From Christensenellaceae bacterium (GTDB lineage: Bacteria; Bacillota; Clostridia; Christensenellales; Christensenellaceae), in the NCBI GenBank assembly GCA_022846035.1, contig AP025580.1:1178001-1242000 (forward strand): a stretch of 64,000 nucleotides of DNA, in the 5' to 3' direction. Each line of letters begins with the position of its first letter. The stretch's first letter is position 1. Shown here one piece after another: positions 8,183 to 16,493 of the stretch. Below the pieces are notes generated by a model, which searched no databases, was not told the origin of the DNA, and saw only the letters and a program-made list of their open reading frames with translations. The position numbers were made by a program, and so were the translations under genes.

Positions 8183-8258
8183 GGGAGTATAGCTCAGCTG
8201 GGAGAGCATCTGCCTTACAAGCAGAGGGTCACAGGTTCGAGCCCTGTTACTCCCACCA
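8183..8258 (+). tRNA. tRNA-Val (anticodon TAC), CCA encoded
   Basis: The acceptor GGGAGTA pairs with TACTCCC, the anticodon loop CTTACAA contains TAC, and the T-loop GTTCGAG is present. The CCA end is encoded. Confidence 0.96.
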
Positions 8259-8268
8259 TTACATTTAT

Positions 8269-8345
8269 GGCCTGGTAGTTCAGTTGGTTAGAACGCTAGC
8301 CTGTCACGCTAGAGGTCGAGAGTTCGAGTCTCTTCCAGGTCGCCA
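8269..8345 (+). tRNA. tRNA-Asp (anticodon GTC), CCA encoded
   Basis: The acceptor GGCCTGG pairs with CCAGGTC (one G-U), the anticodon loop CTGTCAC contains GTC, and the T-loop GTTCGAG is intact. It lies ten bases after tRNA-Val. Confidence 0.96.
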
Positions 8346-8369
8346 TTTTTTCTTTAGTAAGTTTGTTAT

Positions 8370-8444
8370 GCGGGAGTGGCTCAGTGGTAGAGCGTCGCCT
8401 TGCCAAGGCGAATGTCGCGAGTTCGAATCTCGTCTTCCGCTCCA
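8370..8444 (+). tRNA. tRNA-Gly (anticodon GCC), CCA encoded
   Basis: The acceptor GCGGGAG pairs with CTTCCGC, the anticodon loop TTGCCAA contains GCC, and the T-loop is GTTCGAA. It is the third tRNA of the cluster. Confidence 0.96.
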
Positions 8445-8447
8445 TAT

Positions 8448-8521
8448 GGCGCCATAGCCAAGTGGTAAGGCAGGGGCCTGCAAAGCCCTTATCCCCAGTT
8501 CAAATCTGGGTGGCGCCTCCA
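8448..8521 (+). tRNA. tRNA-Cys (anticodon GCA), CCA encoded
   Basis: The acceptor GGCGCCA pairs with TGGCGCC, and the anticodon loop CTGCAAA contains GCA. The U discriminator base and the compact D-loop are typical of tRNA-Cys. It lies three bases after tRNA-Gly. Confidence 0.96.
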
Positions 8522-8531
8522 AGAGCATAAG

Positions 8532-8563
8532 AACCGATTATCTATGAGATAGTCGGTTTTTTT
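8532..8563 (+). terminator. Rho-independent terminator of the tRNA cluster
   Basis: An 11-base stem (AACCGATTATC with GATAGTCGGTT, one G-U pair), a five-base loop and a seven-T run lie just after tRNA-Cys. Confidence 0.9.
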
Positions 8564-8566
8564 GTT

Positions 8567-8593
8567 CTTACAAAAATGTAAGATAATTGTAAG
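8567..8593 (+). promoter_or_regulatory. TGTAAG repeat box upstream of the ABC transporter operon
   Basis: CTTACA (8567-8572) faces TGTAAG (8577-8582), and a second TGTAAG follows exactly 11 bases later (8588-8593). Direct half-sites one helical turn apart are typical for OmpR-family response regulators (family knowledge). The last half-site ends 32 bases before the -10 TATAAT. The same spacing recurs upstream of the 37-codon peptide gene at 11685. Confidence 0.5.
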
Positions 8594-8602
8594 GAAGTTC
8601 GA

Positions 8603-8631
8603 TGGATAATCGTACGTTGAAACGATATAAT
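8603..8631 (+). promoter_or_regulatory. Promoter of the peptide/ABC transporter operon
   Basis: The -10 TATAAT (8626-8631) is perfect; the -35 TGGATA (8603-8608) at 17 bases is weak. A weak -35 with an upstream repeat box suggests activator dependence (inference). Confidence 0.55.
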
Positions 8632-8662
8632 AAAATCATCAAAACAGGAGGAATGGCCTAAA

Positions 8663-8806
8663 ATGAAACGAATCATATTCTTTGGAATCATAGCAGCGAC
8701 GCTGGTCGGTGTGGGACTTTACAGCTTAGTGGTTAAAGTAAGGGATTTTTTCAAAAAAGAAAATACGCTGGACCGTTCCACCGGTTTTTACATCGGAATG
8801 GAGTAA
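8663..8806 (+). CDS. Small membrane peptide (47 residues), unknown function
   Basis: I do not recognise this gene. The ATG at 8663 follows a good Shine-Dalgarno (AGGAGG, 8647-8652). The product starts MKRIIFFGIIAATLVGVG, one predicted membrane helix (about residues 4-24), then a basic stretch with KVRDFFKK and a polar tail ending GFYIGME. The stop lies 13 bases before the ABC ATPase start and the ATPase Shine-Dalgarno sits in that gap, so it is the first gene of the transporter operon. It could be a small accessory subunit, a regulator of the transporter, or a substrate peptide. The short length limits certainty, but the signals are good. Confidence 0.65.
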   Translation: MKRIIFFGIIAATLVGVGLYSLVVKVRDFFKKENTLDRSTGFYIGME

Positions 8807-8819
8807 GCAGGAGGAAAAG

Positions 8820-9587
8820 ATGAACGTATTACTGGATATGAAAAACGTAGAAAAGGTCTACGGAGGCAGAGGAAATATAACCAAAGCGCTGGATAAGGTC
8901 AGTTTTGCAGTCGGCGACGGGGAATTTCTGGGGATCATGGGACCGTCGGGAAGCGGCAAAACAACGCTTTTAAATTGCATCTCAACAATTGATACGGTAA
9001 CAACCGGTCATATTATGATAGATGGAGTTGATATTACAACTTTGAACACCGGAAAGCTGGCAGATTTCAGGCGGGAAAAGCTCGGCTTCATTTTTCAGGA
9101 TTTCAACCTGCTCGATACGCTTTCGGGATACGAAAACATTGCCCTTGCACTGACGATTTGCAACGTGCCATATCCGCAGATCAAGGCACGTATAAAAGAA
9201 GTAGCGGCAACACTTGAGATCAGTGATGTATTAAATAAATATCCATATGAAATGTCAGGCGGCCAAAAACAGCGTGTCGCTGCCGCGCGCGCCATTATTA
9301 CAAAGCCGTCGCTCGTTCTTGCGGATGAACCGACTGGTGCGCTGGATTCCAAATCATCGCGTATGATGCTGGAAAGCTTCGTGGAAATGAATCAAAAAAT
9401 GCAGGCTACTCTCTTAATGGTAACGCACGATGCGTTTGCCGCAAGTTATTGCAGCCGGATCTTATTTCTGCGCGACGGCAAAATTTTTATGGAACTGATC
9501 CGCGGTAATGAAACGCGCAAAGAGTTTTTTGGGAAAATTATCGAAGTGGTATCTCTTTTGGGAGGTGACGTAGCCGATGCTGTGTAA
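8820..9587 (+). CDS. ABC transporter ATP-binding protein, BceA/YxdL/SalX type
   Basis: This is the ATPase of a peptide-antibiotic-type (BceAB family) ABC transporter. The 255-residue protein has the Walker A GPSGSGKTTLL (about residues 41-51), the Q-loop FIFQDFNLLD, the signature MSGGQKQRVAAARA, the Walker B plus D-loop LVLADEPTGALDS, and the H-loop VTHDAF. It overlaps its permease by 11 bases. Family members flip or sequester lipid II-binding peptides, or sense them together with a two-component system. The substrate here cannot be read from sequence. Confidence 0.93.
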   Translation: MNVLLDMKNVEKVYGGRGNITKALDKVSFAVGDGEFLGIMGPSGSGKTTLLNCISTIDTVTTGHIMIDGVDITTLNTGKLADFRREKLGFIFQDFNLLDTLSGYENIALALTICNVPYPQIKARIKEVAATLEISDVLNKYPYEMSGGQKQRVAAARAIITKPSLVLADEPTGALDSKSSRMMLESFVEMNQKMQATLLMVTHDAFAASYCSRILFLRDGKIFMELIRGNETRKEFFGKIIEVVSLLGGDVADAV

Positions 9588-11595
9588 ATTAGCTTTCCGT
9601 AATGTACGTAAAAGTATCGGTGATTATACGGTTTATTTTGTTACGCTGATGTTCGCCGTGATGTTTTTTTATGCTTTCAATTCCTTAGATGCGCAGCAAG
9701 CGGTCATGGACCTCAACGAGAATAAGGCGACTGCAGCGCACATGATGGTCGAAAGCATTAGTGTATTTTCAACTTTTGTCGCGATTACATTGGCGATACT
9801 CATTCTCTATGCAAATAATTTCCTGATTAAGCGCAGAAATAAGGAACTGGGCGTTTATCTCATGCTTGGAATGGGGAAAGGCCGCGTCGCCTCTATTTTT
9901 ATGCTGGAAACATTGATCGTCGGGGTGATCGCCCTTGTCGTCGGACTGCTGCTTGGGGTCTTGTTTTCGCAGGTCATGTCCATCATAACGGCAAATATGT
10001 TCGAAGTTTCCTTAAAGCAGTATGTATTTGTATTTTCGCCCAAAGCGGCGATGCAATCAATTATCTATTTCGGCGTGATCTTCCTGTGCGTCATGATCTT
10101 CAATGCCGCGCGGGTGTCTAAGCAGAAGATTATCAAACTCCTGCATGCCGATACGGAAAATGAAAGGGCAATCGGCAGGAAAACCGGCGTTTCCGTTGTA
10201 TTAACGGTTGCTGGCATCCTCCTGATTATCATCGCCTATTACCTGATCATAAAAGGTATGTTGATCATGTATTTGCCGCTTGTCATGCTGTTTGGTATCC
10301 CTGGAACGTTCTTGCTCTTTGCGGGGCTGGCCGGCTTTACTTATAAAATCGCGTCACACAACAAAAAACGCTACTTTAAAGGGTTGAACCTTTTTGTAAC
10401 GCGCCAGATTACCAGTAAAATCAATTCCACGCATACGTCTGTGGCGCTCGTATGCATCATGTTATTCGTAACGATCACGACTCTTGGCGCGGGCTCGGGC
10501 GTCTCGGGCGCCGTCAATAAAGAAACAACGCGGGAAATCAATTTTGATAGCGAATATTATATGCAGCCGGAAACGGCGGAAGCCGCCGGCGGCGCGATTG
10601 AGGCTCTTAAGGCGTACGGGATTCCCCTGGACAGATTCTATTCACAGATGGCGGAATACACAAGCTACGAAAGCGACGTCGATGTCATGAGTCAATTCGG
10701 AAACTATTTTGACGTAGCGGAGATGCACGAAATGGCGGAGGCCCAGGATGTTACTATGCCCGCTATGGCTGTGCCTGTATCACAGTTCAATAGCCTGCTT
10801 TTGCTGATTGGCCAGGAACCCATTGAGGTATCGGAAGATGAACTGGGAATAGTATTGTATAACCAGTCTATGTATGAGAATTTGCAAAAATTTTCCCAGA
10901 GCGGACAAAAGATACTGTCAAATGAAAAGGAGTACGCGGTTCCCAAAGAACAAATGAGGCTTGCAAACACCCGAATCCAGAGCGCGGCCTCCATATCGCC
11001 CGTCATCCTCGTTTATCCGGATGCAGACGTGATAAATTTCAAACCGGAGCAGGTGACGATCGACGGGCTTTACATCGATGGGCAGCCAAAAGAAGTGACG
11101 GAGCAAGCGGTATGGGATTTCCAGAATGAGCTTAAGCGGGTGAATCCGGACCGCCCATATACGTATTTTACGACCGAACTTACTTCCCAGGATTCCAGTA
11201 TTGGATTGCGCGTGACAATATCCTTTGTCGGTATCTACCTCGGGATCACGTTCCTGGTCACGGCGGCCGTGATACTGGCGTTGCAGCAGTTATCCGCCGC
11301 AAACGACAATAGAAAGCGTTATTCGACGCTCAGAAAGCTGGGAACAGATGAAAAAATGATCAATAAGTCCCTGCTGAAGCAGATTGCTATTTATTTCCTG
11401 ATCCCACTGGCAGTCGCGGCAGTGCATGCTATATTCGGGATCAAAGGGATCATGAGCATGATAAACATGATGTGGTATGAAAGCGTAAACGTTTATATAG
11501 ATGTTTTCATGGGCCTGGGTATTATCGCCGTAATCTACGGTATCTACTTTGCAATCACCTATTTCAGCAGCAAGAAGATCATTCGCGAGAATTAA
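9577..11595 (+). CDS. ABC transporter permease, BceB/FtsX-fold type
   Basis: The 672-residue membrane protein has the BceB layout: an N-terminal helix (about residues 18-38), helices near 58-80, 110-140 and 150-180, a second group near 205-260 and 280-310, then an extracellular domain of about 220 residues (roughly 315-540), and a final FtsX-like set of three helices ending IYFAITYFSSKK. The Shine-Dalgarno GGGAGGTGA lies within the ATPase gene. The large extracellular domain is the part that binds the peptide ligand in BceB (family knowledge). No short intramembrane-sensing BceS-type kinase is adjacent; the nearest kinase has a large extracellular domain. Confidence 0.9.
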   Translation: MLCKLAFRNVRKSIGDYTVYFVTLMFAVMFFYAFNSLDAQQAVMDLNENKATAAHMMVESISVFSTFVAITLAILILYANNFLIKRRNKELGVYLMLGMGKGRVASIFMLETLIVGVIALVVGLLLGVLFSQVMSIITANMFEVSLKQYVFVFSPKAAMQSIIYFGVIFLCVMIFNAARVSKQKIIKLLHADTENERAIGRKTGVSVVLTVAGILLIIIAYYLIIKGMLIMYLPLVMLFGIPGTFLLFAGLAGFTYKIASHNKKRYFKGLNLFVTRQITSKINSTHTSVALVCIMLFVTITTLGAGSGVSGAVNKETTREINFDSEYYMQPETAEAAGGAIEALKAYGIPLDRFYSQMAEYTSYESDVDVMSQFGNYFDVAEMHEMAEAQDVTMPAMAVPVSQFNSLLLLIGQEPIEVSEDELGIVLYNQSMYENLQKFSQSGQKILSNEKEYAVPKEQMRLANTRIQSAASISPVILVYPDADVINFKPEQVTIDGLYIDGQPKEVTEQAVWDFQNELKRVNPDRPYTYFTTELTSQDSSIGLRVTISFVGIYLGITFLVTAAVILALQQLSAANDNRKRYSTLRKLGTDEKMINKSLLKQIAIYFLIPLAVAAVHAIFGIKGIMSMINMMWYESVNVYIDVFMGLGIIAVIYGIYFAITYFSSKKIIREN

Positions 11596-11607
11596 GGAGT
11601 TTGTAAG
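11591..11607 (+). promoter_or_regulatory. Second TAAG/TGTAAG box, upstream of the 37-codon peptide gene
   Basis: ATTAAG (11591-11596) and TGTAAG (11602-11607) are 11 bases apart. TGTAAG ends 32 bases before the TATAAT at 11640, the same geometry as at 8577-8631. The box overlaps the permease stop codon. Confidence 0.5.
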
Positions 11608-11639
11608 AATTTGGATAATGAATATTCATAAATGCTCTT

Positions 11640-11645
11640 TATAAT
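11640..11645 (+). promoter_or_regulatory. -10 box of the 37-codon peptide gene
   Basis: A perfect TATAAT with no recognisable -35 at 16-18 bases, which fits an activated promoter using the box at 11591-11607. Confidence 0.5.
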
Positions 11646-11684
11646 AAAGTATAAACAATATAGTATAAGAGAGGAGTGATTGCA

Positions 11685-11798
11685 TTGAAAAAAATACTAT
11701 ATGCGGCAATGGTTTTTGTAAGCGCGTTTTTCCTTGTAAACGCAGGCGTAACGGAAAACGAAGCCTTGGGAATCATTCCTAACTATTCGGGAGAATAA
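11685..11798 (+). CDS. Small secreted peptide precursor (37 residues), unknown function
   Basis: I do not recognise this gene. A TTG start at 11685 is eight bases after AGGAG (11672-11676); an in-frame GTG at 11676 falls inside the Shine-Dalgarno and is less likely. The product begins MKKILYAAMVFVSAFFLVNA, a textbook signal-peptide shape (two lysines, hydrophobic core, small residues at the end), followed by the acidic 17-residue tail GVTENEALGIIPNYSGE. There is no cysteine, so it is not a thiolactone autoinducer of the usual type. It has its own -10 box and its own terminator, so it is a single-gene transcript between the ABC transporter and the two-component system. A signalling peptide or small cell-surface peptide is possible (inference). 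Confidence 0.6.
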   Translation: MKKILYAAMVFVSAFFLVNAGVTENEALGIIPNYSGE

Positions 11799-11820
11799 GG
11801 TATCTTCGTTGCACAGGACA

Positions 11821-11850
11821 AAAAGCGTTTTCATCGCGAAAACGCTTTTT
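11821..11850 (+). terminator. Rho-independent terminator after the 37-codon peptide gene
   Basis: A perfect 12-base stem (11821-11832 with 11838-11849), a five-base loop, and a T-tract that forms the end of the stem. It separates the peptide gene from the response regulator. Confidence 0.85.
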
Positions 11851-11928: not shown

Positions 11929-12615
11929 ATGGCAAAAAACATATTAATTGTAGATGATGAACCTACTTTGGTCAAGGGACTCCGTTTTAATTTAGAGCAG
12001 CAGGAAGGCTATTCCATCGACGTTGCGTATGACGGCGAGGAAGCTCTTGAAGTTTTCGATCCGGCAAAGCACGATCTCATTTTGCTTGATTTAATGCTTC
12101 CGAAAATGGATGGTATGGAGGTCTGCCAGAAAATACGCAGCACATCCGATGTACCGATCATTATGCTGACGGCGAAAGGCGAGGATATGGATAAAATCAT
12201 GGGGCTTGAATTCGGCGCCGACGATTATATGACAAAGCCTTTTAATATGCTGGAGCTTAAAGCCAGGATCAAAACGATATTCAGGCGGGCGGGCGCGCAG
12301 AAGCCGGCGGGGGATACGCAGACGATCCAGGTCAAGGACATGAAAGTGAATCTTATAAACCGCAGCGTTGAAATCAAAGGCAAGGATATTAACCTGACCG
12401 CAAAGGAGTTTGATCTTCTGAACCTGTTTATTACGAACAAAGGAAAAGTATTCGACAGGAATACGCTGCTTGAAATGGTATGGAAACACCAGGGAGATTT
12501 GCGTACGGTGGACGTGCATATCCGGCGGTTGCGCGAAAAAATCGAACAAAACCCTGCGAAACCCGAATATATCTTAACAAAATGGGGAGTTGGATATTAT
12601 TTTACGAATAAGTAA
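11929..12615 (+). CDS. OmpR/PhoB-family response regulator
   Basis: The 228-residue DNA-binding response regulator has a receiver domain (residues 1-120) with acidic pocket D9-D10, phosphoacceptor D54 (ILLDLMLP), and switch T and K in MLTAKGED and YMTKPF. A winged-helix effector domain (about 130-226) includes LTAKEFDLLNLF and TVDVHIRRLREKIE. The 3' end overlaps the kinase reading frame. It resembles the WalR/YycF branch at the N-terminus, but the neighbours are GerMN lipoproteins rather than walHI, so WalR is not assigned. It is the nearest candidate binder of the TGTAAG boxes (inference). Confidence 0.92.
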   Translation: MAKNILIVDDEPTLVKGLRFNLEQQEGYSIDVAYDGEEALEVFDPAKHDLILLDLMLPKMDGMEVCQKIRSTSDVPIIMLTAKGEDMDKIMGLEFGADDYMTKPFNMLELKARIKTIFRRAGAQKPAGDTQTIQVKDMKVNLINRSVEIKGKDINLTAKEFDLLNLFITNKGKVFDRNTLLEMVWKHQGDLRTVDVHIRRLREKIEQNPAKPEYILTKWGVGYYFTNK

Positions 12616-14044
12616 ATTAATGTACTCGATCCGTTGGCGTTTTGTGATTATCTACCTGATTCTTGTGGGAATCATTTTCGGATTGGTATCCGTAGCTGTT
12701 TCGTCTATGGTAGAGAATTACCTTGTGAAGCGGTATTTGCAGGATGCGGAAACAAGCGCCAACCGTACGGCGGTGCAAATTGCCCCATATCTGAGCGATT
12801 CCGATGCAAACAGTATGTATAATATTGTGGTCAGCAACGGAAACGATATGGGCGGCCGTTTGCTGGTGCTTAACAGTTCGGGTATCGTACAAACGGATAG
12901 TTTTTCTTCCTTAAACGGAGTGAAATTAAACGAACGCGAAGTCAATGATGTTTTGTATGGCCAAAACTCGTCCTCTTACGGCTTTCACCTGATCGATGAC
13001 AGCACAACGGACGATAGTTTTTGGTCTGTTTATTATACCTCGTCGATCATACACAATGGCAAGATCATAGGAGCAGTCCTCTATTCGTCAAGTATCACAG
13101 ACGTAGTAAAGGCGACAAGCCTCCTGCAGTCGCAAACGCTTATCATATTTATTCTGGCCTGCGGCGTAATCATTATATCCAGCATGCTTTCTACGAACTG
13201 GATTACCAATCCGATCAACAAGCTGACGGATGTCGCTGTTAAGATTTCAGCCGGCGACCTTAAGCAGCGCGCCAGGATAAAAGGCAAGGGCGAGATCGCA
13301 GAGCTGGGACAAACCTTTGATATGATGTGCGACAAAATACAAAACCTCGACAAGCAGCGAAGCGAATTTGTATCCGACGCATCGCACGAACTGAAAACGC
13401 CGCTCGCATCCATGAAAATATTAGTGGAATCCCTGCTTTATCAGGACAATGTTCCCGAGGAAGTATACAAGGACTTTTTATCTGATATTAACGGCGAGAT
13501 CGACCGGCTTAACAGTCTGATTACAGATCTGTTATTGCTTTCCAAGATGGACAGCGATATTATGGCGATCAATCTGGAGACGATTAATTTGTCGTCGCTG
13601 GTCAATAAATGTGTAGAGGCACTGCGCCCGATTGCGCAGATGCGCGATATACGTATAACGGAGAACCTGGAAAGCGGCCTTGAGATCGAGTGCGATCCGC
13701 TGAAACTGCGGCAGGCGCTTAACAACTTGATTGAAAATGCAATCAAATACACGCAGGATGGCGGACATGTGCAGGTAAGCAGCAAACGCCGTGGTAATGA
13801 GGTCGCGGTTCAGATCGAGGATGACGGAATCGGCATGAGCGAAGAACACTTACAGCATATTTTTGAGCGCTTTTACCGCGTTGACAAAGCGCGTTCGAGG
13901 GAAACTGGCGGCACAGGTCTCGGGCTCCATATTGTGCGGCGGATCGCCCTCATGCATAATGGCAGAGTAGAAGTGGAAAGCGCGGAAGGACAGGGGTCAA
14001 AATTCACCCTGATTCTGCCTGTCACACAGAAACGGGAAGAATAG
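12590..14044 (+). CDS. Sensor histidine kinase with extracellular sensor domain
   Basis: The 484-residue kinase has TM1 (about residues 18-40), an extracellular sensor of roughly 135 residues, TM2 (about 178-200), a HAMP linker, HisKA with phosphoacceptor His266 (SDASHELKTPLASM), and the HATPase N box (NNLIENAIKYT), G1 (DDGIGM) and G2 (GGTGLGL). The start is uncertain: a TTG at 12590 sits directly after GGGGAG, and an ATG at 12620 lacks a Shine-Dalgarno; both are given as options. The large sensor domain differs from the minimal BceS type, so the ligand is not read through membrane helices alone. It forms an operon with the regulator and probably with the lipoproteins. Confidence 0.92.
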   Translation: MDIILRISKLMYSIRWRFVIIYLILVGIIFGLVSVAVSSMVENYLVKRYLQDAETSANRTAVQIAPYLSDSDANSMYNIVVSNGNDMGGRLLVLNSSGIVQTDSFSSLNGVKLNEREVNDVLYGQNSSSYGFHLIDDSTTDDSFWSVYYTSSIIHNGKIIGAVLYSSSITDVVKATSLLQSQTLIIFILACGVIIISSMLSTNWITNPINKLTDVAVKISAGDLKQRARIKGKGEIAELGQTFDMMCDKIQNLDKQRSEFVSDASHELKTPLASMKILVESLLYQDNVPEEVYKDFLSDINGEIDRLNSLITDLLLLSKMDSDIMAINLETINLSSLVNKCVEALRPIAQMRDIRITENLESGLEIECDPLKLRQALNNLIENAIKYTQDGGHVQVSSKRRGNEVAVQIEDDGIGMSEEHLQHIFERFYRVDKARSRETGGTGLGLHIVRRIALMHNGRVEVESAEGQGSKFTLILPVTQKREE

Positions 14045-14057
14045 GAAGCGTTGTATT

Positions 14058-15023
14058 ATGAAGAGAAAACTGAAAAATACAATCTGTATAGGACTGGCGG
14101 CTATTCTATGTTTGGCTTTTATAGCCTGCGCGCCGGCAGAAGAAGAACCAAGCGCATCTCCGAGCACAGCAGTGCAGATCAATCCTTTGCCTGAAGCGAT
14201 CAGCAAGGATAAAAGCAGCGCGCGGCTTTATTTTGGCTTTATGGACCAACCTTTTTTGGTAGGGGAATCTCATTCCTTTGACGTGCCCATCAATGAAAGC
14301 ATTGAAAATTCGGTCATTCGGGAACTTATTAAGGGGCCGCTTTCCACGCGTACGGATCTACAGGCTGTGATTAATCCTAAAACCACCCTTGTCAGCGTAA
14401 GATCGGAAGGCCAGTCGCTGTTCGTAACGCTTAGCAACGATTTTCTGAAGCCGGTGGATGAAAAGGCCAGCAGCGACACGGCTTATGAAAAAACGCGCCG
14501 CCTGCTTGCGGTCTATTCCATCGTCAATACGCTGATCGAGCAGGGAACATATTCCCGCGTGCAAATCCTGATCGACGACGACGGTATGGGCACCGGACGT
14601 CCATTGACCCTTTCGGAGGCCGGTCTTGACGGCGAAGGAGCGGTAGAAGCACTTGAACGGAATGGCGAGCTCGTCTTAAATGGCGCTAATACGATGCGCG
14701 AGATTATGCAGGCCATTGAAAATAAAGAATGGGGCACGCTTTATAACTATATTGCTTATAAAAATTTATATGGGCAGGATAAGCCGTCGCTTGATGATTT
14801 CCAAAATGAAGTGATTTCCAGCAAGCTGACTATTTCGGACACGGCGATCAGGGATGCCGTTATAGGCAACGACGCCGCCTCTGAAATTATCATGGTGGAT
14901 TATGTGTTAAAGCTGCGTGACGAAGAGGCGAAGACCCTTAACAATATCCCGATTAAACTGATTCAGGAAAACAGTATCTGGAAAATATCGTATACGGTAT
15001 TCAAGAGAAATTTCCTGACTTAA
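14058..15023 (+). CDS. GerMN-domain lipoprotein (single domain)
   Basis: The 321-residue precursor begins with a lipoprotein signal peptide ending LAFIACAP (lipobox cysteine near residue 24). A GerMN (sporulation/germination) domain spans about residues 55-185, with the pattern RLYFGFMDQ, VIRELIKGP, LFVTLSNDFL and YSIVNTLIEQG. The remaining 110 residues resemble a small ligand-binding or NTF2-like region ending WKISYTVFKRNF. It lies 13 bases after the kinase. GerMN lipoproteins next to two-component systems are common in Clostridia, but the role is poorly defined; a cell-envelope sensing partner is possible (inference). Confidence 0.85.
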   Translation: MKRKLKNTICIGLAAILCLAFIACAPAEEEPSASPSTAVQINPLPEAISKDKSSARLYFGFMDQPFLVGESHSFDVPINESIENSVIRELIKGPLSTRTDLQAVINPKTTLVSVRSEGQSLFVTLSNDFLKPVDEKASSDTAYEKTRRLLAVYSIVNTLIEQGTYSRVQILIDDDGMGTGRPLTLSEAGLDGEGAVEALERNGELVLNGANTMREIMQAIENKEWGTLYNYIAYKNLYGQDKPSLDDFQNEVISSKLTISDTAIRDAVIGNDAASEIIMVDYVLKLRDEEAKTLNNIPIKLIQENSIWKISYTVFKRNFLT

Positions 15024-15035
15024 TAAAGGAAAAAC

Positions 15036-16493
15036 ATGAAAAAAATAGCTTGGCTCCTGCTTGCATCGTTGATTTTCCTGACCGGTTGTTCAATGATCAA
15101 AGAGGACGACCCAAATCAAAGTAGCGAATACCAGACATCGCAGCTGATGCAGGAAGTCGACCTGACGCCTTCCATTACCATCAGTCCTGTTTTGTATTTT
15201 TTGGATGAAACGGGAAAGAAACTCTCGGCCGAGACGCGTACGCTTTCGGTACCGCAAAACGAGCGTGCCGAAACGCAGATTATCAAGGCAATGATCGACG
15301 GACCATCTTCGGACATCTTAAAGCCTGTGGTGAACGGTTTTTCACTTGACGGCGTACAATTGCTGCCAGACGTTATTAACGTATATCTCAATCTTGAAGA
15401 TAAAAACAAAGCTGAAAGACAGATTCTTACGGCTAAGCTTGCGATAGCGGCAACTTTATTTGATTTTTCCGGCGTTACTTATGTAAACGTCTATATCAAC
15501 GGCAGCCAGACTGCTTTTCAAAACCTGCCCTCCGGTACCTTGCAGAAATCGAAAAATACATTATCGGAGGACCTGGATAAGTATGAGCGGGAGGCAAGCG
15601 CGCAGACTGCCGCGCTCAATGTCACACTATACTTTCTGGACGCTTCAGAACAATACCTCTTGCCGGAAGTGCGTACCTTAAGTTTTGAGAGCACGCAAAA
15701 GGAAAATATGATTCAGGTGCTCGTGCAGGAAATCATAAGCGGACCGGACGATACTTATAATCATATTCCCGTGGTGGACAAGCTGGTGACGGACGCTTTG
15801 CTCAATTCTGTCACGATTATTCCTGATGAGCAAAACCGTAACATAGCAAAGCTGGATTTTAACAAAATGCCTTTTGCGCAAACACAAACGTATCAGGATG
15901 GCGGAGAAATTACCGCCGCGGCGCTCGCTATGGCCATCACAGGCTTTATACCGGATATTTACGGCATACAGATTACGGTAAATTCTCAGGAACCGCTACT
16001 CCAGGCGGATTCGCGTATCTTTACGGCGTCTGAGTTTTCATCCCTGCTGGGAAATAATATCTTACTTTACCTGCCCAACAGTACCTATACGCTGCTTAGC
16101 AGTGTAAACCGCATGGTGGGGCAGAACAGCGCGGGTTATCCGGCGGAGTTACTGCGGGAACTGATGAAAGGGCCTGCCGCGCAGGACAGCAGTGAAGTGC
16201 AGCCGGCCTTTATTTCCGGAATCACGATGGACGACGTAAACAGCGTTTATCTTGCCGGCGATACTGCCGTTGTAGATTTTAAGGACAGCATCCGTGAGAA
16301 GATGAGCGGTATTTCTGAAAAGAATGAATTTATCATGATATATTCCATCGTGAATACACTGACGAATATCAATAATATCAAACGGGTACAATTTTTGGTC
16401 GATGGCGGACGGGTCGAATATTTGGGTGACGGAAATTTACTGTGTGTGATCGATCCGATCATAAAAAATCCAGGGATTATACGCCTCACATAA
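15036..16493 (+). CDS. GerMN-domain lipoprotein with three GerMN-like repeats
   Basis: The 485-residue precursor has a lipobox FLTGCSMI (Cys near residue 18). Three related units follow, each with a LYFLD/LYLP strand, a loop, and an acidic-to-GP helix: ITISPVLYFLDETGK...KAMIDGP (about 48-90), LNVTLYFLDASEQ...QEIISGP (about 193-240), and NILLYLPNSTYTL...RELMKGP (about 344-385). GerM of Bacillus has two such domains, so three copies in one chain is unusual. It lies 12 bases after the single-domain GerMN gene, suggesting duplication in place. Confidence 0.83.
   Translation: MKKIAWLLLASLIFLTGCSMIKEDDPNQSSEYQTSQLMQEVDLTPSITISPVLYFLDETGKKLSAETRTLSVPQNERAETQIIKAMIDGPSSDILKPVVNGFSLDGVQLLPDVINVYLNLEDKNKAERQILTAKLAIAATLFDFSGVTYVNVYINGSQTAFQNLPSGTLQKSKNTLSEDLDKYEREASAQTAALNVTLYFLDASEQYLLPEVRTLSFESTQKENMIQVLVQEIISGPDDTYNHIPVVDKLVTDALLNSVTIIPDEQNRNIAKLDFNKMPFAQTQTYQDGGEITAAALAMAITGFIPDIYGIQITVNSQEPLLQADSRIFTASEFSSLLGNNILLYLPNSTYTLLSSVNRMVGQNSAGYPAELLRELMKGPAAQDSSEVQPAFISGITMDDVNSVYLAGDTAVVDFKDSIREKMSGISEKNEFIMIYSIVNTLTNINNIKRVQFLVDGGRVEYLGDGNLLCVIDPIIKNPGIIRLT

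Follow-up and report, generated by a model that had tools for sequence, protein, structure and literature searches.

Two micro-peptide genes share a promoter box type with a Bce-type transporter in Christensenella

We analysed a stretch of 64,000 nucleotides (the window) from a Christensenellaceae bacterium (GenBank assembly GCA_022846035.1, contig AP025580.1, positions 1,178,001 to 1,242,000 of the forward strand), in which the genes for a Bce-type transporter, bceA and bceB, are accompanied by two very small peptide genes of 47 and 37 codons. Read 5' to 3', four tRNA genes and a hairpin with a T stretch precede a regulatory box (box 1), the 47-codon gene, bceA, bceB and a second box (box 2), after which come the 37-codon gene, a hairpin, and genes for a response regulator, a histidine kinase and two Germane-domain proteins (Table 1). 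An earlier note, made from this sequence without database searches, had described both small reading frames correctly; it had also proposed that their promoters carry identically spaced boxes served by one activator, and that the 37-codon gene forms a separate transcript whose product is processed to a 17-residue tail. The genome containing the window (G000) comprises 2.77 Mb on one contig and was compared with the five other Christensenella genomes (G001 to G005, making six in the genus) and with G009 and G012 (the latter of genus g5), which represent a sister genus.

Table 1. Positions in the window of the bce operon, the two peptide genes and the surrounding features (TM, transmembrane)
Feature	Position	Strand	Remarks
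tRNA-Val, -Asp, -Gly, -Cys	8183-8521		
Hairpin, then T stretch	8529-8561		5' of box 1
Box 1, Bce-type regulatory box	8567-8593	+	CTTACA-N4-TGTAAG-N5-TGTAAG; inverted repeat plus third half-site
bce operon promoter	8603-8631	+	weak -35 TGGATA 8603-8608; spacer 17 nucleotides; -10 TATAAT 8626-8631
47-codon peptide gene	8663-8806	+	single TM; short tail after TM helix
bceA	8820-9587	+	ATPase of Bce-type transporter; PF00005
bceB	9577-11595	+	FtsX-type permease; PF02687
Box 2	11593-11607	+	TAAG-N5-TGTAAG; overlaps bceB stop codon; no inverted half-site
Peptide promoter -10	11640-11645	+	TATAAT
37-codon peptide gene	11685-11798	+	TTG start; alternative GTG start at 11676; product with N-terminal Lys-Lys, TM or signal segment 4-20, 17-residue tail
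Hairpin, likely terminator	11820-11850	+	T-rich 3' arm, after 37-codon gene; judged by folding energy
Response regulator	11929-12615	+	OmpR family, MtrA/WalR-like; alternative activator of peptide promoter; library matches below curated cut-offs
Histidine kinase	12590-14044	+	two TM segments with region between, HAMP, HisKA, HATPase

BceB of the window has 10 predicted TM or hydrophobic segments, the seventh and eighth of which lie 244 residues apart (gap 306-551), and matches the FtsX family as well as the solved BceB (7tcg, E 1.3e-31) and the solved PsdB. Its orthologues in all five congeners are 72-82% identical to it, and BceA is 80-92% identical to theirs. Permease topology, the presence of bceRS in the genome and a Bce-type box before the transporter genes assign this transporter to the BceAB type by sequence, and by analogy it would probably serve in peptide-antibiotic resistance and signalling. 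G000 also carries a second, distant Bce-like ATPase-permease pair (L061, C1:1701876-1702808; L050), whose permease is 25% identical to BceB of the window and in whose vicinity there is a BceS-like kinase stretch containing a single in-frame TGA.

The motif TAAG-N5-TGTAAG occurs at 8579-8593 and at 11593-11607, with half-site starts 11 bases apart, and both copies end 32 bases ahead of a perfect TATAAT. The full arrangement, TAAG-N5-TGTAAG-N32-TATAAT, has two matches in the window and none in 100 shuffles, which confirms the spacing given in the earlier note; without the -10 element, the two window matches compare with a shuffle mean of 0.06. The note's account of the first box was right as to the TAAG pair and had overlooked the additional inverted half-site, CTTACA, at 8567-8572. 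When a looser pattern, TAAG-N5-YGTAAG-N30..34-TATANT, was searched for in eight whole genomes, we observed 15 matches against one for the reversed control, and just the two window sites in G000. The 15 sites comprise the bceA promoters and the 37-codon promoters of all six genus genomes, the peptide promoter of G012, and two sites without conserved context, one before an unrelated large frame in G009 and one before a GTPase gene in G004, which we take to resemble ychF. Within the genus, 12 of 13 direct-repeat boxes with a spaced -10 are therefore at bceA or the 37-codon peptide, the G004 GTPase gene accounting for the thirteenth. Chance as an explanation of the boxes is ruled out by the shuffle counts and by the genome-wide pattern counts with reversed controls. 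The -10 lies 32-33 nucleotides (nt) from the box in 6/6 bceA promoters and in 7/7 promoters of the 37-codon peptide, a rival candidate at 43 nt scoring equally in G012, and five of the peptide promoters (G001, G002, G003, G005 and G012) have TTAAGAA in common between box and -10.

The bceA box of the genus reads CTTACA-N4-TGTAAG-N5-YGTAAG. An inverted-plus-direct pattern, TTAC-N5-YGTAA-N7-GTAA, has 10 matches in the six genus genomes, six at bceA, four at a two-peptide operon described below and none elsewhere (reversed control, three); this pattern was built from sites already seen, and the independent part of the result is the absence elsewhere. In the same genomes, the direct repeat GTAAG-N5-YGTAAG is matched 17 times and its reversed control 19 times. 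Ten of the direct-repeat matches are at bceA (six) or the 37-codon peptide (four); the peptide boxes of G000 and G004 start with TTAAG and are thus missed by it. Across 396 genomes of the order, the box was found at 51 places in 46 genomes, against 32 places in the control by manual count. A BceA-like ATPase lies directly 3' of it in six of 23 places examined among the 41 outside the genus, in other families of the order, so the bare box pattern is noisy. The bceA promoter of G009 (L011) carries the inverted repeat but lacks GTAAG as a third half-site.

The 37-codon peptide is kept in all six genus genomes, and 11 intact copies were found: one each in G000, G004 and G012, and two each in G001, G002, G003 and G005. 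For six linked copies, the ratio of nonsynonymous to synonymous differences (pN/pS) is 0.34 in the gene's own frame versus 0.81 and 1.76 in the two alternative frames; the frame is under purifying selection. The gene lies between bceB and the regulator gene in G000 and G004. In the four species with two copies, 9-23 bp separate the end of one copy from a solitary bceA paralogue 3' of it (bceA2), which encodes a Walker A motif and is not followed by a permease gene; the other copy comes after the membrane peptide. No bceA2 is present at the G000 and G004 loci. The bceA2 genes (L044 8129-8896; L046 2978-3745; L047 and L048, reverse strand) are more divergent among the four species (65-83% identity) than bceA (92-95%). 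All copies have Lys-Lys before the helix, replaced once by Lys-Arg and once by Arg-Lys, and much of a tail motif, E-x-E-A-L-x-I-I-P-D-Y, is conserved. Using a profile at E 0.01, we recovered the family in 12 of the 396 genomes, namely the six of the genus, G012 (a convincing match), G009 and four with short matches, which were dropped because they lie inside other frames. The G009 match (C23, L114) is a frameshifted remnant of the gene. GTDB r220 contigs, scanned for a single short pattern and therefore with low sensitivity, yielded four loci, all from Christensenella.

As to the transcript, the hairpin after the 37-codon gene is stable (-14.9 kcal/mol, z -4.95), in line with the terminator assigned to this gene in the earlier note, but a consensus terminator scan did not list it. 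The same scan listed no terminator-like site between bceB and the 37-codon gene, and box 2 overlaps the bceB stop codon, so that read-through from the bce promoter is likely and a separate transcript is no more than a possibility.

The 47-codon peptide belongs to a more variable family of membrane peptides with one TM helix, about 47-57 residues and a mostly basic tail, whose net charge is +4 to +8 in four species. A profile of five sequences (A1) finds one convincing relative per genus genome; it finds the G000 peptide at E 4.7e-19, a value that is not independent, as the G000 sequence is itself a row of A1. We relate the G000 peptide to the others on account of a box of the same type, a common N-terminus (MK-x-I-x-F-x2-II-x2-T) and the single copy in each genome. 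In G000 the gene leads bceA, and in G004 it stands at the same place with its frame shifted near the start, a shift that may be real or an assembly error. In G001, G002, G003 and G005, the membrane-peptide gene heads an operon apart from bceA, which also contains the second 37-codon-family copy (hence two-peptide operon) and has an inverted box of its own; between G002 and G003, the pN/pS of the membrane peptide is 0.32. The expectation that related genomes keep both small frames and the TAAG pairs was therefore borne out for the 37-codon gene and both boxes and only in part for the 47-codon gene at bceA. The membrane-peptide profile matched eight of the 396 genomes, the six of the genus and two others; the latter matches, being short and inside large frames, were dropped, as were weak matches within the genus at E 1 inside large frames. 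In G002, G003 and G001 (L041, L042 and L043, respectively; also L054 3667-4850), the two-peptide operon comes after genes for an encapsulin and for a small candidate cargo protein, ferritin-like or COQ7-like. The G001 encapsulin matches Linocin_M18 at E 4.8e-72 (Pfam run on the G001 genes), and the G002 and G003 genes of this region read nearly identical to those of G001; G005 keeps the peptide pair, with no encapsulin frame seen within the 10 kb read.

BceS relatives of at least 59% identity are present in 6/6 genus genomes. In G001, G002, G003 and G005 (four of six species), bceS lies directly before bceA with the box between them, and in G000 the bceR-bceS pair is unlinked from bceAB, lying on C1 near 1.308-1.310 Mb, about 120 kb away. 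The bceRS genes of G000 and G004, both away from bceAB, lie beside apparently the same upstream two-component system. G000 BceS has an N-terminal hydrophobic stretch, in which a simple scan called one segment only, and no extracellular domain. From its TTAC onwards, the inverted part of the bceA box fits the consensus given for Bce-like promoters of L. paracasei, AnnTTACnAnnnnGTnAG, in an excerpt of PMC10858260. Because the bceA box fits this Bce-type consensus and directly follows bceS in four species, BceRS is a better candidate for the activator than the adjacent MtrA/WalR-like regulator. We prefer BceR as the putative activator at both boxes, given the shared -10 spacing and the lack of a wide regulon of the direct-repeat box.

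Small helper peptides have been described for other Bce modules, and the statement in the earlier note that no described system has this layout was too strong, as VraDEH and YsaDCB/YxdLM-YxeA come close (excerpts of PMC5786555 and PMC7438565). According to the former excerpt, VraH of Staphylococcus aureus is a small TM protein whose C-terminus is positively charged and which interacts with VraD when VraE is present (PMC5786555). VraDEH, as described there, likewise pairs a transporter of the Bce type with a tiny accessory in the membrane, and the membrane peptides have a single TM segment and a basic C-terminal tail as VraH does. They differ from it in that the motif YYKRREEKGK is absent, by eye, from the five intact membrane peptides aligned, and no family match was found. 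The gene vraH is located after vraDE, whereas the peptide gene here precedes bceA or sits in a separate operon with a second peptide. YsaD, in the excerpt of PMC7438565, is a secreted peptide of the ysaDCB operon of Lactococcus lactis, proposed to modulate signal relay; it falls in TIGR01655 and shares properties with YxeA. Both YsaDCB and YxdLM-YxeA of Bacillus subtilis encode, on that account, a small protein with an N-terminal signal sequence together with a Bce-type transporter, and the 37-codon peptide has a signal-like N-terminus, which may or may not be cleaved, and transporter linkage. In contrast, the exported candidate here is just 37 residues long and has its own promoter, and the peptides of G000 and G002 gave no TIGR01655 match at E up to 1 in NCBIfam (the presence of that model in the release is unconfirmed). 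Membership in TIGR01655, Pfam or NCBIfam families was rejected for the G000 and G002 peptides, whose matches were all insignificant. With BceRSAB/PsdRSAB, the system shares permease topology, the ATPase, a kinase without extracellular domain and the box TTACnAnnnnGTnAG; it differs in that bceRS is unlinked from bceAB in G000 and in that micro-peptides and, in four species, a solitary BceA paralogue appear to enlarge the regulon.

Bce-type modules are a main defence of Bacillota against lantibiotics and bacitracin; to our knowledge, micro-protein accessories are known for only a few of them, with an unclear mode of action. In the open-access literature, judged by titles and abstracts, we found no description of such peptides in Christensenella, and both the families and the way they are arranged look new. 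Across six genomes of a gut genus, a conserved promoter code links two kinds of peptide, neither with a significant family match, to a single module. This yields a small testable gene set and a natural experiment, in which the genes occur in a separate operon, a fused operon and a lone-ATPase operon.

With moderate confidence, we read both peptides as accessory micro-proteins of a BceRS-AB module that would sense and detoxify antimicrobial peptides, probably working like VraH or YsaD/YxeA, without implied membership in those families. A peptide antibiotic of the lipid II cycle would load BceAB, and the transporter would activate BceS; phosphorylated BceR would bind the box and induce bceAB and the peptides together. 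The peptide of about 47-57 residues would lie in the membrane, probably N-out/C-in, and the 37-residue peptide N-in with its short tail outside, cleaved or uncleaved; this topology is proposed from charge, since a basic tail follows the helix of the membrane peptide and Lys-Lys precedes that of the 37-residue peptide. Both would reside with BceAB/BceS and adjust transport or signalling, as with VraH-VraDE and as proposed for YsaD-YsaCB, and BceA2 may exchange for BceA on BceB. The sequence itself shows the transporter, a box type common to its promoter and those of the peptides, conserved peptide frames and a bceRS pair at another place of the genome; co-induction under antibiotic stress, membrane residence and an accessory role are what we infer. 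More tentatively, the two peptides might make up a genus-specific membrane module that gives the Bce detoxification complex a further layer of sensing or gating. Such a module could be encoded as a separate operon or within that of bceAB, or could be coupled to a solitary BceA paralogue able to take the place of BceA on the transporter.

Several observations weigh against the accessory role. The 47-codon peptide leads bceA in just two species, with a broken frame in one. The -10 of the two-peptide operon is weak and its spacing is not kept, the best candidate lying at 37 nt in G002 and G003, at 37 or 32 nt (tied) in G001 and at 32 nt in G005. The G000 membrane peptide is just 23-30% identical to its relatives, and its tail is shorter, with a net charge of +1. 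Neither Pfam nor NCBIfam gave a significant match for the peptides of G000 and G002 (two each). The promoter of the 37-codon gene has the direct repeat alone, without the inverted half-site. G012 keeps the peptide and the direct-repeat box; a search of this genome (72% complete) gave no BceB and, for BceS, nothing better than generic kinase domains. The precedents are mild as well: VraH is reported to matter for gallidermin and not for nisin or bacitracin (PMC5786555, excerpt), and YsaD is apparently dispensable for resistance and has opposite signalling effects in two transporters (PMC7438565, excerpt).

It is possible, if somewhat doubtful, that two regulators are at work, BceR acting on bceAB through the inverted box and the MtrA/WalR-like regulator on the 37-codon peptide through the direct repeat. 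The peptide would then serve cell-wall homeostasis or feedback on the neighbouring histidine kinase, whose inter-TM region could sense. WalR-type boxes are direct repeats, TGTWAH-N5-TGTWAH, like those that stand alone at the peptide promoter; the regulator gene adjoins the peptide or the peptide-bceA2 unit in 5/6 species, and in G012 the box is kept with neither BceB nor a clear BceS detected. However, the last base of TGTAAG does not agree with the WalR consensus, the box is also present in G005 with no adjacent regulator in the 12 kb read, and the box-to--10 geometry equals that of bceA. A WalR/MtrA-type protein is a master regulator, for which a wide regulon would be expected; the direct-repeat counts given above show no broad regulon in the six genomes, the seven matches away from bceA and the peptide being unexamined. 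The suggestion that the nearby OmpR-family regulator controls both promoters is accordingly not favoured, in view of the Bce-type box, the bceS adjacency, the six BceA-like ATPases at boxes outside the genus and the missing wide regulon. What is supported of the note's reading is that the promoters of both genes carry one conserved box type and that both genes are linked to a Bce-type transporter; for the peptide's own promoter, G012 leaves the neighbour some claim.

The remaining alternatives concern what the small genes make. A cleaved and secreted 17-residue signal or surface peptide from the 37-codon gene is unlikely: the Lys-Lys, the hydrophobic core, the V-x-A before Gly in 9 of 11 copies and the conserved tail motif would suit it, but the hydrophobic part is at least as well conserved as the tail (mean column identity 0.83 vs 0.73 in the six linked copies), and the other two copies have V-T-T, with Thr at -1. 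These same points make the processed tail of the earlier note doubtful. No adjacent peptide-receptor gene was noticed either, though no search for one was made. We give still less weight to the peptides being a transporter substrate, a bacteriocin or a decoy, for example with an exposed tail that titrates cationic antimicrobial peptides. Apparent co-regulation with the transporter and a tail net charge of -3 in G000 speak for this, yet the charge is inconsistently negative (-4 to +1 over the 11 copies), the targets of Bce-type transporters are exogenous antibiotics, and maturation genes were not noticed, though they were not searched for. Least probable of all is that the 47-codon frame is a mere cis-acting leader (attenuator) of the bce operon, as its location might suggest: in G000 and (with a frameshift) in G004, it has the promoter before it and bceA after it. 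We rejected this because four species carry the relatives in an operon of their own and have no such leader at bceA, and because the frame of the relatives shows the constraint noted above for G002 and G003.

The response regulator of the window and its presumed partner, the adjacent histidine kinase, resemble both MtrAB-LpqB and WalRK. They differ from these in score and in that the regulator's link to the boxes is only a candidate one; the regulator falls below the equivalog cut-offs of YycF (255.9 vs 340) and MtrA (231.5 vs 300), and below the curated cut-offs of all 25 models shown. The response regulator, the HAMP kinase and two Germane-domain (GerMN) proteins stand consecutively at 11929-16493, a row similar in layout to the actinobacterial MtrAB-LpqB genes.

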